Assembly (NCBI GenBank): GCA_005524015.1
Contig: SULG01000012.1
Coordinates: forward strand, 1 to 57,399
DNA: 57,399 nt
Direction: 5' to 3'
Origin: Candidatus Jettenia ecosi
GTDB lineage: Bacteria; Planctomycetota; Brocadiia; Brocadiales; Brocadiaceae
Below are positions 6,444 to 41,571 of the stretch, piece after piece. Below the pieces are notes generated by a model. That model saw only the letters and a program-made list of their open reading frames with translations. It was not told the origin of the DNA and searched no databases. The first letter of the stretch is position 1. The number at the start of each line of letters is the position of its first letter. The position numbers and the translations under genes are program-made.

Positions 6444-6797
6444 TGGTGGAGGCGGCGGGAATTGAACCCGCGTCCCTGGATATTTCAGCATAGGTTTCTA
6501 CGTACATAGTCTATTTTTTAATTTCGCCATCAAAAACTCCAACAGACAGGATTTCTCATGACTAGCTCCGTTTAAAGGCTCGCTTAGTTCCCACCGAGCA
6601 GAGGAACTAAACTATCCTGCTGGTTGTCATTTAATTAATCTCGCAGGTAAGGTTAATTAAACGTGGCTACACTTAAGCAGCCATTGCCATTGGATATTCG
6701 GCATTTAAATCATTTTGCCAGGTTTTTAATGAGGCCGCCTGACAACCTCAATACGCCGCCTATACCTCAACGTATCCGGTCGAATCCTTTCGCCCCC
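6444..6797 (-). ncRNA. ssrA: Transfer-messenger RNA (tmRNA)
   Basis: The minus strand reads GGGGGCGAAAGGATTCGACC at its 5' end and GGGTTCAATTCCCGCC followed by GCCTCCACCA at its 3' end. The 5' GGGGGCG pairs with CGCCUCC, including the G3-U70 wobble recognised by alanyl-tRNA synthetase, and CCA is encoded. Length is 354 bases, normal for a one-piece tmRNA. The tag reading frame ends NDLNAEYPMAMAA at a TAA (complement of 6673-6675); the resume codon cannot be fixed by eye but a GCG or GCC upstream in this frame would give a tag of about 20 residues. tmRNA with SmpB rescues stalled ribosomes and marks the nascent chain for ClpXP degradation. The ending MAMAA is a variant of the common ALAA. Confidence 0.97.
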
Positions 6798-30952: not shown

Positions 30953-31600
30953 TTAAAAAGCAAAGGATACTTTATCAGCCCAAATACTATTTGGATAATC
31001 ATTCATGATCTTCCGCCATGCATTTAACAATGCATCAACATTATGGGTTGCCTTGTACTCTGAAACACCCAGCCAATATTGTGCCTCAGGCGCAATACCG
31101 CTCTTCGGATATTTATCTACCACAGATTTTAATTTAGTGCTGGACGTTTTATAATCATGCTTTTCCAGTACCATCTTACCTAAGCCAAATTCCAATTGCG
31201 GAATAAATTCATCAGATGGGAGAAAACCATGAAAACGATAATATTCGGTACCATCAGAATCTAAAACAAGAATGGTTGGCGTCCAAAATATGCGGTATTT
31301 ACTCAGAAGGTCTGAATTGCTTTGTGTACTGATATGTAAAGGGATAAAGTTTCTGTTGATGTAATCGGTTACTGCGGCATTTGGGTACGTCACGGTACCC
31401 AGGGTTTTACAGCCTGCTCATGTAGGAGAAAAGAAGTCTAATAAAATCGGCTTCCCTGCTTCTTTTGCTTTCTTTACCGCTTCTTCAAAGGTATTTTCCC
31501 ACGGTATCGTTGAAAGTTTATCCTTAGCGTCTGCAATGAGTGTTGTTGCAAAAGGAACGAGTGTAAATACAATAAGATAAGATAAGGCATATTCTAACAT
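30953..31600 (-). CDS. Thioredoxin-like protein with in-frame UGA at the first redox Cys (candidate selenoprotein)
   Basis: Two adjoining frames share one reading frame interrupted by a single TGA (complement of 31418-31420, codon 61). The residues read DFFSPT-UGA-AGCKTL, so the UGA lies exactly where the first Cys of a thioredoxin CxxC motif belongs, giving UxxC. Upstream is a hydrophobic N-terminus (LSYLIVFTLVPFATTLIA), pointing to export. After the active site the protein has the cis-Pro block FWTPTILVLDSDG and a TPR-like C-terminal part (SGIAPEAQYWLGVSEYKATHNVDALLNAW). A 7-base perfect stem with a six-base loop lies 17-36 bases after the UGA. All this argues for selenocysteine; 215 residues in full. 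AGAGG precedes the ATG by 7 bases. Confidence 0.85.
31382..31401 (-). promoter_or_regulatory. Candidate SECIS hairpin of the thioredoxin-like gene
   Basis: On the coding strand, TGGGTAC and GTACCCA pair perfectly around the loop CGUGAC. The stem starts 16 bases after the UGA and the loop has a G at its second position. Bacterial SECIS elements are stem-loops immediately downstream of the UGA whose apical loop, bound by SelB, contains a G in the first two positions. Geometry fits that rule. Confidence 0.7.
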
Positions 31601-31698: not shown

Positions 31699-31872
31699 TT
31701 ATTGGTTTTCTCTATCCTTTAAAAAGGTATCTATATCAGCCTTTATACGTGGGCCATCAGTCTCTTTAGCCTTATTATAACACAGAATACAAATATCTCC
31801 CTTCACGGTAGTCATCTTTTTCCACTCGTCTTTTTCTCCGAGGAAACAACCACATTTCCAACAATTGGCCAT
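31699..31872 (-). CDS. Small zinc-ribbon protein (57 residues)
   Basis: The frame starts at an ATG (complement of 31870-31872) and encodes MANCWKCGCFLGEKDEW, followed by GDICILCYNKAKE. The CWKC/CILC Cys pairs, spaced about 24 residues apart, predict a zinc ribbon or rubredoxin-like knuckle. It lies in the gap between the thioredoxin-like gene and the DUF3786 gene, on the same strand as both. Its coding nature is supported by the Cys-pair pattern. Function unknown. Confidence 0.65.
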   Translation of the reverse strand: MANCWKCGCFLGEKDEWKKMTTVKGDICILCYNKAKETDGPRIKADIDTFLKDRENQ

Positions 31873-31884
31873 GGTATATCTTCC

Positions 31885-32673
31885 TTATTTAATTGGTAAC
31901 AATGTAACAAATAATTCTACGAATCTTTCTACAAGATAGGCAAGATATTCTATATCAATATAGGCCTCTGCACTCGTATCAAAAAAGAGTTTACAACTGG
32001 CTGAAAATTCCTCGTCAGCCTCCCAGAAGCATAAATACAAAGGTATGCGCGGTAAAAGATCAAAACGGCAAATATAATCCGCCTTCATCTTACCCATATC
32101 TTCTACCCCACCAAATTCCTTGCAGCGTGCTTTCAGGCCTTCCATATTCTTATTAAAAATAGCCGCAACCTTTTCCTCTGCACTACGCTGAAATGCCTTT
32201 ACATGGGAAGCAGTATTAGGAAAGTAACCAAGCGTAACCCAATTCCCTGTTAAAGATTTGTTTCCTTTCCTACGGATATAATCATATATGATAATCTTTG
32301 ACCAGGAATCATAGCAATACTTACCATCTTCAAACAAGCCTTCTTTACGCATCTCGTAGGGTTTATTCATCATGTTAAGTCTTATAACATCATACCCATT
32401 TTTTTCCTCAAAATGGCCTCCAATAGCAACGGATGCCTCTTTAAAATTTATTTGTTTAGCATCACTTTCTAATTCATTGCTCACACGCTCATAGTTATCC
32501 TCCACAGTAACAGTGGTTTTCTGGAGGTGTGATTCATTATCTTCTTTATTAACATAAGGACAATCAGACATCTTAAGTTGAGCATTTTTTACTTTAATAG
32601 CAAAGGCTATACAAGTGGGCATACCACATTTACCACAATTTGTTTTAGGTAATTTCTTATATATAGTAATCAT
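31885..32673 (-). CDS. DUF3786 protein with N-terminal 4Fe-4S motif
   Basis: The 262-residue protein begins with KTNCGKCGMPTCIAFAIKVKNAQ and continues to SDCPY, a C-x2-C-x4-C-x16-C pattern like the Fe-S domain of the corrinoid iron-sulfur protein (CFeSP) of the acetyl-CoA pathway. The rest matches the DUF3786 pattern (GKYCYDSWSKIIIYDYIRRKG, NWVTLGYFPNTASHVKAF, PLYLCFWEADEEF). DUF3786 proteins are found mostly in organisms with acetyl-CoA or corrinoid metabolism; the biochemical role is unknown. It lies on the same strand as the small zinc-ribbon protein, 13 bases upstream of it, so the two may be one unit. A terminator-like hairpin separates it from ppdK. Confidence 0.8.
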   Translation of the reverse strand: MITIYKKLPKTNCGKCGMPTCIAFAIKVKNAQLKMSDCPYVNKEDNESHLQKTTVTVEDNYERVSNELESDAKQINFKEASVAIGGHFEEKNGYDVIRLNMMNKPYEMRKEGLFEDGKYCYDSWSKIIIYDYIRRKGNKSLTGNWVTLGYFPNTASHVKAFQRSAEEKVAAIFNKNMEGLKARCKEFGGVEDMGKMKADYICRFDLLPRIPLYLCFWEADEEFSASCKLFFDTSAEAYIDIEYLAYLVERFVELFVTLLPIK

Positions 32674-38868: not shown

Positions 38869-41571
38869 TTATCCAGGTATTTTCTCTATTTTTGCCCCGC
38901 AGACTTTATATTCTGCTGTTTGAGTAATATTATCGTAAGCATCTATTGTCAACTTATTTACAGCAGACTCAGCAAAGTGCAGAGGCATCCAGATTACACC
39001 CTTCTTTACCTTCCCAGAAACCTCGGCACGAGCAGTAATCTCACCACGACGTGTAGCAATTCTAATCGTTTCACCATCAAAGATTCCCAATTCCTTTGCA
39101 TCTGCCTGATTTACTTCAACAAAACATTCATTTGTTTTATGAATAATCCCTTCCGACCTTCGTGTCATAGTACCTGCATTGTAATGATACAAGGTGCGTC
39201 CTGTTGAGAGTAGCAATGGAAAATCTTTATCAGGACTCTCGGCGGGTGCACGATAGGGCAATACAAAAAATTTACCAAGACCTCTTGGGAATTTACCCTC
39301 ATGTAAAAATTTAGTGCCAGGATGTTTTGCATCTGGACATGGCCATTGAATGCCATTTTGCTCGATCCTTTCATAACTAATGCCTGCGAGTATGGGTGTA
39401 AGGTTTGCAATTTCATCAAAAATTTCCTTTGGTGAAGAATAATTCATGTTGTATCCCATACGCGTAGACAACTCGGAGGTAATTTGCCAGTCAGGCCTTG
39501 TATTCCCTACTAGATCAATGGCCTTCCGGACACGCTGGACACGGCGTTCCGTATTAGTAAAAGTACCATCCTTTTCGGCAAAACTGGTAGCTGGCAGGAT
39601 AACATCTGCATATTTAGCAGTTTCTGACATAAAAATATCTTGTACAACAAGAAATTCAAGATTTTTTAGCGCTTTGATGGTGGAATCCTGATTAGGTTCA
39701 CTGATAACCGGGTCTTCTCCGATTACGTACAGGGCCTTAAATTGATTCTTATCCATACGTTCAAACATGGTCGGCGCAGTAGCCCCCGGAGTTCTTGACA
39801 ATGTGACACCCCAAGCCTTCTCAAACTTCTCCATAACCGCATTATCTGTAACGCCCTGATATCCGGTCATTTTATCCGGTAAACACATATCTGTAGCACC
39901 CTGCACATTATTCTGGCCCCGAATAGGATTAACACCTGTACTGGATTTTCCGACATGCCCTGTCAATAAAGCAAGGTTTGCAATAGTTCTCACATTATCG
40001 GTACCGCAGGTATGTTCGGTAATCCCCAGGGTATAATATATGGCTGATTTTTCTGACTTAGCGTATAATCTGGCAGCCTGACGGATATCTTCTGCCGGAA
40101 TACCAGTAAATTCCGAGGCCTGTTCAGGTGTAATATCCTTCACAAATGCTTTTAACTCTTCGAAACCTTCTGTCCGAGTGCTTATGAATTCTTTATTTTC
40201 AAGACCTTCGGCAATGATGACATGAGCCATTGCATTCAATAACCAGTTATCTGTACCCGGTCTTACCGGGAGATACAACTTGGCATGCTGAGCAAACCAG
40301 ATCTTGCGTGGATCAGCTACGATAAAGGTACATCCATTCCTTAGAGCCTTCTTCATCTCCAGCCCCACAATTGGATGCGCCTCTGTCGGGTTGCCGCCAA
40401 TCAGAAAAATGAGTTTACAGTCCTTGATTTCGCTAATGGAATTGGTCATAGAGCCACTACCGAATGACATCGCCAGACCGGCGACGGAAGGTGCGTGTCA
40501 AGTCCGGGCACACTGATCTACGTTGTTTGTGCCAATCGTAGCACGCGCAAATTTCATTGCCAGATAATTATCTTCATTAGTACATCGCGAAGAGCTCATT
40601 ACTCCTACATAATCTGGTCCGTATTTGGCCTTTATTTCACCTAATTTAGAAGCAACGAGGTTCAGCGCTTCATCCCATGTTGCCTCTTCAAATTTCCCAT
40701 TTCTCTTTATGAGCGGCTGCTTCAATCGGTCAGGATGATGGACAAAGTCAAAACCGAATCGTCCTTTTACACATAGGTTGCCATCATTAGGAATAGACCC
40801 CGCCTTCGAAGTTACTTTAACAATCTGGTTCCCTTTTACATTTAAGTACATCGTGCAACCTACACCGCAATAGGCACAGGTGGTTTTGACCTGTTTAAAC
40901 TCCCACTCCCGTCCCATTCCTACAGCTTGCTTCTCCACTAATGAACCAACTGGGCAGGTAGACACACACTGACCGCACAACACACAGGTTGTATCACGTC
41001 GGGACATTCCAAATGGTAGACCTGTTTCTGTTTTAAACCCCCGATCCTTGAAATCAATAGCATAATCCTGCTGAACTTCGGAACAAATGCGGACACAGCG
41101 ACCACACAAGATACATTTGCTCGTATCTTGCTGAATGACAGGGTTACTATCCTCTACAACACCGCCGTCTGGTTCCTCAAAAAATTTGCTTTCTCTCACA
41201 CCATATTCATAAGCAAGATCCTGTAATTTACAGGCGCCACATTTCCCACACGTCATACAATCTTTAGGATGATCCGAGAGAATTAACTCCAAAACCATTT
41301 CTCGTGTTTTTAATACCTTTTCAGAATCAGTTCGAATAACCATACCATCGGTAACTTCAGTATTGCAGGAAGTAATAAGGGCATTCGACTTACCTCTTTC
41401 TATCTCTACCATACAAACACGGCATGCCGCAAAGGGCTCCAGACGAGGGTCGTGGCACAGGGTTGGAATATGAATACCGATAGAACTGGCTGCTTGTAAA
41501 ATTGTTTTGCCTTTGTTCACTTCTATCGTATTACCATCAATATTTAATTTAATCTTTGGAACCATTACCAT
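38869..41571 (-). CDS. fdhA: Formate dehydrogenase alpha subunit, UGA-encoded selenocysteine at the Mo ligand
   Basis: The gene encodes 900 residues with one in-frame TGA (complement of 40498-40500, codon 358). The N-terminal part has a 2Fe-2S ferredoxin block (CHDPRLEPFAACRVCMVE), an H-C-type cluster (HPKDCMTCGKCGAC), two 4Fe-4S motifs (CILCGRCVRICSE, CVLCGQCVSTCP) and the MoCo-domain cluster CAYCGVGCTMYL. The UGA lies in QCART-UGA-HAPSVAGL, which is the Sec140-type position of E. coli FdhF (U-H-G-P-S-V-A). A hairpin with a GGUCU loop follows. After the UGA the molybdopterin domains continue to the stop at 38869. It oxidises formate to CO2 or the reverse. AGGAG precedes the first ATG. Confidence 0.93.
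40469..40485 (-). promoter_or_regulatory. SECIS-like hairpin of formate dehydrogenase
   Basis: On the coding strand GUCGCC pairs with GGCGAU (one G-U) around the loop GGUCU, 12 bases after the UGA. E. coli fdhF has, as I recall, the apical loop AGGUCU in its SECIS, recognised by SelB. The matching loop and distance support selenocysteine insertion. Confidence 0.8.

Follow-up and report, generated by a model that had tools for sequence, protein, structure and literature searches.

The 2026 inventory of prokaryotic selenoproteins comprises 119 families, among them a 'Thiol:disulfide interchange protein' listed with the Pfam domain PF13098, a UxxC motif and the accession WP_011366075.1 (PMC13188914). 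The selenocysteine (Sec) form of PF13098 with a UxxC motif was already covered by the 2006 survey of Zhang, where it was found in three genomes, namely those of Syntrophus aciditrophicus and two Geobacter species (PMC1794560). Sec forms have been reported for Geobacter metallireducens, G. uraniireducens and S. aciditrophicus (PMC1794560, PMC9312934, PMC13188914), and the ocean (GOS) survey refers to the type as 'Trx-like 2', cd02953 DsbD-gamma (PMC2398784). The gene described here lies in the window, i.e., the whole analyzed stretch of 57,399 nucleotides from the Brocadiaceae anammox bacterium Candidatus Jettenia ecosi, and shares with the listed family the PF13098 domain, the UxxC motif, DsbD-gamma-like features and an occurrence in Geobacteraceae and Syntrophaceae. 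A TPR tail, members in Planctomycetota, exported paralogs and a shared SECIS element, all encountered in this study, are not mentioned in the literature consulted on that family. Likewise, no earlier description was found in the literature on anammox, Planctomycetota, TPR or CnoX selenoproteins.

The coding sequence, as delimited by its frame and homologs, occupies positions 30953–31600 on the minus strand and leads from the ATG at 31600 to the TAA at 30955–30953 through a single TGA, encoding 215 amino acids. This sole in-frame TGA (31420–31418) is codon 61 and, as the initial annotation had proposed, falls exactly on the first Cys of a CxxC motif, giving UAGC in the context SPT-UAGC-KTL; conservation of the column predicts Sec at this position. 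The resolving Cys of the motif, codon 64 (TGT, 31409–31411), is invariant among the homologs compared. Residues 1–25 (31526–31600) form a hydrophobic segment, modeled with low confidence, which represents a signal peptide or an anchor but does not begin with the positively charged residues typical of signal peptides. As judged from this segment, the protein is most likely sent across, or anchored in, the membrane. The thioredoxin domain (residues 30–135; 31196–31513) obtained 58 bits with Pfam Thioredoxin_2 (PF13098) as best domain, in addition to matches to Thioredoxin_7, DsbH and Thioredoxin. It is followed by a helical tail (residues 141–213; 30962–31180) matching TPR_6, YbgF and YfiO models; that this TPR-like tail is real is borne out by the domain matches, the structure model and the structural match.

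The AlphaFold2 model of the protein reached a pLDDT of 88 and a pTM of 0.81. Foldseek comparison with the PDB returned Escherichia coli YbbN/CnoX as top match by E-value, followed by DsbD-gamma domains at an rmsd of approximately 2. YbbN/CnoX has the same domain order, thioredoxin and then TPR, but its global superposition was poor (TM-scores of 0.38/0.30, rmsd 12), because the domains are placed differently and the tail of the Jettenia protein is much shorter; moreover, this tail is of another TPR type and Sec replaces Cys. By sequence and fold, the DsbD gamma domain represents the closest thioredoxin domain, although the UxxC protein is a stand-alone form with TPR tail and Sec that is not fused to the DsbD alpha and beta parts. 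Among NCBIfam models, the best match over the thioredoxin part was the TsoB rhodanese/DsbD fusion-like protein (NF045694), likewise a selenoprotein, for which 56.8 bits were obtained where the cut-off is 805; the UxxC protein is without rhodanese or membrane part. The window protein remained under the curated cut-off of every NCBIfam model, and the models matched by most family members are partial TsoB/DsbD-type and YbgF-type ones. With the classical Sec thioredoxin (PF00085, e.g., of Treponema denticola) the UxxC thioredoxin fold is held in common, but PF00085 scores far below PF13098 here and the TPR tail is added.

A perfect hairpin with a 7-bp stem (UGGGUAC/GUACCCA, 31401–31395 and 31388–31382) and the 6-nt loop CGUGAC starts 16 nt after the UGA (31382–31401, minus strand), with G at the second loop position, exactly as first described for this gene. 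Folded alone, it is within chance expectation (z = −0.82; 47 of 200 shuffles fold equally well), but its conservation across relatives puts it far beyond chance. In a set of 62 nonredundant homologs collected by protein sequence only, the six core pairs all form in 57; nearly all homologs have G as second loop base, and the loop seen most often is CGUGAC. At pair 22–35, 19 of these sequences have G-C and 39 have A-U, representing a compensatory change, and rarer double changes were seen at other stem pairs. Furthermore, not a single synonymous difference was seen in codons +7 to +10 among 20 close orthologs, whereas the mean for codons outside the element is 0.44. The consensus TGGRTRCNGNNNCGTAYCC, used for pattern scans, has three matches in the 3.86-Mb genome, which lie exactly at the three UxxC paralogs; in the window it was observed once versus zero expected, and 100 shuffles of the window contained no match.

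All four components of the Sec machinery were detected in the genome of Jettenia itself: selA (549 bits) adjoins selB (395 bits) on one contig, selC encodes a tRNA-Sec with TCA anticodon, and selD obtained 362 bits. The latter (L083:1501–2427, corresponding to G000:C26:6333–7259) is itself a UGA gene, in which TGT GGT GGG TGA GCT GGT AAG encodes CGGUAGK. The window's second Sec site is located in fdhA (38869–41571, minus strand), where a UGA at 40500–40498 (residue 358) occupies the classical position within CARTUHAPSVAGL and is accompanied by a hairpin with the loop GGUCU. This UGA supports UGA decoding in the Jettenia host, and together with selA–D and the UGA in selD it substantiates the assumption that the host reads UGA as Sec.

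Within the genus, the TGA is kept in two copies that are 98% and 97% identical to the gene, and 32 of 62 Brocadiales genomes contain a homolog with TGA at site 61. Two or three paralogs occur in the Jettenia genome and in others, every one with TGA. At the codon-61 column, all full-length homologs feature TGA except for two clades with Cys, and when 392 Planctomycetota genomes were searched with a profile, nearly all full-length matches possessed exactly one in-frame TGA. Within Brocadiales, tRNA-Sec was found in 30 of the 32 genomes with the UGA gene versus 5 of 29 without it (Fisher p = 5e-10, kinship uncorrected); of the two genomes in which tRNA-Sec was unmatched, one is a MAG of 84% completeness, and selB is present in the other. 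Four genomes of the same anammox family that are 99–100% complete (G029, G030 and G031 of genus g6, and G035) lack tRNA-Sec and the UxxC gene and gave no selB match above the cut-off. Since all three are missing, the Sec system seems to have been wholly lost in these genera.

Two other explanations of the TGA were considered. If the thioredoxin gene were decaying, a nonsense mutation or sequencing error would need just one change, from TGC or TGT to TGA, in a Cys-type motif, and the bare hairpin is unremarkable. However, the same TGA occurs in dozens of independent genomes from many phyla, the hairpin is conserved with compensation, and the median Ka/Ks after the UGA is approximately 0.12 (46 ortholog pairs), which indicates strong purifying selection. 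The decay that would have spoken against a selenoprotein, namely Cys-coding close relatives without hairpin next to a damaged copy here, was not encountered: close relatives retain TGA, hairpin and frame, and the Jettenia gene contains no other disabling changes. Because the TGA is kept in relatives and the downstream frame is under purifying selection, a nonsense mutation is regarded as excluded, and error or decay in general as extremely improbable. Reading of UGA61 as another residue, whether through suppression with Trp or Cys or through reassignment of the code, is very improbable as well. Cys insertion would also work, considering that two clades have Cys at the site, but UGA still serves as the normal stop of many orthologs, where no hairpin is present; moreover, the tRNA-Sec anticodon is UCA, and the SECIS-type constraint together with the co-occurrence of the Sec machinery favors Sec. 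From comparative sequence evidence, the gene is almost certainly a selenoprotein gene with UGA61 read as Sec, insertion being predicted.

Cys at codon 61 had also been expected in relatives. Cys forms do exist in two clades, namely two Scalinduaceae-type genomes (G059/G060) and one clade of Geobacteraceae (L295–L305, TGC or TGT in place of the Sec codon), but the close relatives of the Jettenia gene carry TGA. In Geobacteraceae, all six stem pairs are present in none of 11 Cys genes versus 8 of 9 Sec genes; both Scalinduaceae-type Cys genes likewise are without hairpin, so that overall 0 of 13 Cys genes read keep it. The Geobacteraceae Cys clade is nested among Sec forms with a branch support of 98, and the tree, which takes in rows selected for the Sec pattern, requires only two Sec–Cys changes. 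Since Geobacteraceae of this clade still have tRNA-Sec, the change from Sec to Cys left the Sec machinery in place. Judged from its codons and missing hairpins, this clade is a clean natural Sec-to-Cys conversion.

In order to determine the breadth of the family, genomes of 84,980 species were scanned for the UxxC-plus-SECIS DNA pattern. At least 117 stretches matched; by construction, the scan finds Sec forms and therefore measures breadth and not the Sec:Cys ratio. Among the matches listed, 80 of 80 loci fit the family profile in the TGA frame, a few being contig-end fragments; one locus (L156) encodes a longer protein that matches the profile over the thioredoxin part only. Taxa among the matches listed are Planctomycetota, Desulfobacterota/Thermodesulfobacteriota including Geobacteraceae, Nitrospirota, Eremiobacterota, Chloroflexota, Thermomicrobiota, Gemmatimonadota, Acidobacteriota, Bacillota and one cyanobacterial MAG. 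Syntrophaceae also hold UxxC family members. In the tree, a cytosolic UIGC paralog of Brocadiaceae groups with proteins of Desulfobacterota and Nitrospirota, and the exported-type copies, comprising the window type and the UASC type, form a separate Brocadiaceae clade. A hydrophobic N-terminus was observed in the window copy and most exported-type paralogs; members outside the Brocadiaceae lineage are mostly leaderless.

Tandem UGA thioredoxins were observed at L024/L046 (G032), L019/L047 (G041), L023/L051 (G038) and L069 (G034); where the motif was read, such pairs consist of one UAGC/UTGC type and one UASC/UTSC type, which suggests a local duplication of the exported form. In addition, one planctomycete (L138, G201:C38:8500–11000) encodes two adjacent thioredoxin-like proteins of more than 300 amino acids with UGPC and UHFC motifs, which are different Sec thioredoxin subfamilies. 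Further Planctomycetota loci (L139–L142) encode UGWC thioredoxin-like proteins with longer open frames and a differing sequence after the TGA, possibly representing another Sec thioredoxin family.

Regarding the gene neighborhood, a 57-aa Cys-rich ORF without Pfam match lies upstream on the same strand (31699–31872, minus) and is conserved beside the gene in five of the Brocadiaceae loci compared. Further upstream, also on the minus strand, a gene for an Fe-S and DUF3786 protein (31885–32673) is linked in only some relatives and possibly shares a transcript with the UxxC gene. The neighborhood search revealed no conserved operon partner pointing to a substrate or reductant, and flanking genes vary by lineage. 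Among the matches listed, a TrxR-like flavoprotein (FAD) gene is located directly downstream, at a distance of 30–181 bp, in 4 of 80 loci (L169, L186, L203 and L229; Desulfobulbaceae-type and Nitrospirota), on the same strand in two of them; this weakly hints at a possible reductase partner. A tmRNA gene with the tag AEYPMAMAA was also noticed in the window (6444–6797).

The overall model, a Sec-decoded DsbD-gamma-like UxxC thioredoxin with TPR tail that functions as thiol-disulfide reductase, is considered very probable. SelB with Sec-tRNA(UCA) would bind the hairpin 16 nt past the UGA, and the ribosome would insert Sec61 rather than stopping. The Sec61 selenolate may then attack a substrate disulfide or another oxidized thiol, Cys64 would resolve the adduct as a selenenylsulfide, and a reductant would reset the enzyme. 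The TPR tail probably serves as docking site for a client or partner. Taken by itself, the reductase role is somewhat more likely than not.

Concerning the physiological role, a chaperedoxin function like that of CnoX/YbbN, in which the TPR arm holds oxidized clients while the Sec-Cys pair protects client thiols, would agree with YbbN as top PDB match and with the conservation of a TPR-type tail in all phyla examined. It is nevertheless unlikely, considering the low TM-score, the much shorter tail of YbgF/TPR_6 type and the DsbD-gamma nature of the nearest thioredoxin domain. CnoX works with cytosolic GroEL, whereas several forms of the UxxC protein look exported. The hydrophobic N-termini of the exported types, together with the DsbD-gamma-like fold, would instead be compatible with an exported reductase that is supplied by a DsbD/CcdA-like membrane protein and serves either the maturation of cytochrome c or the repair of disulfides in the periplasm. 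Anammox bacteria produce many multihaem proteins, and this load would fit such a task. However, none of the conserved neighbors examined is a ccm, ccs, dsbD or ccdA gene, and the mostly leaderless members beyond the Brocadiaceae lineage also speak against this role, which is therefore likewise assessed as doubtful. A still bolder proposal, to be regarded as quite unlikely, envisages a selenium-dependent chaperedoxin: an ancient, mainly Sec-containing thioredoxin-TPR lineage of about ten phyla with near-fixed SECIS, duplicated and exported in anammox bacteria, where it would keep disulfides reduced outside the cytoplasm.

Based on domain, motif and taxa, which fit, the Jettenia gene most likely belongs to the listed PF13098 UxxC family. 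Accordingly, the initial view that this may be a new or rare family of selenoproteins holds regarding the selenoprotein itself, but the family is not rare, as it extends over many phyla, and probably not new, PF13098 UxxC proteins having been listed since at least 2006. What is new is the breadth, the members in Planctomycetota and anammox bacteria, the duplicated copies of exported type and a SECIS that is nearly fixed, and not a selenoprotein class. Since NCBIfam is without a covering model, automatic annotation probably labels the gene as truncated or pseudo in anammox and many other genomes. A large part of the Brocadiaceae produces selenoproteins, the UxxC one being present in up to three copies, and one or two genera are without a Sec system. 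Within the UxxC family, Sec seems to be the rule and Cys forms look exceptional, and the SECIS is nearly invariant across phyla. The UxxC family therefore represents a good natural set for studies on SelB–SECIS recognition and Sec-to-Cys conversion.
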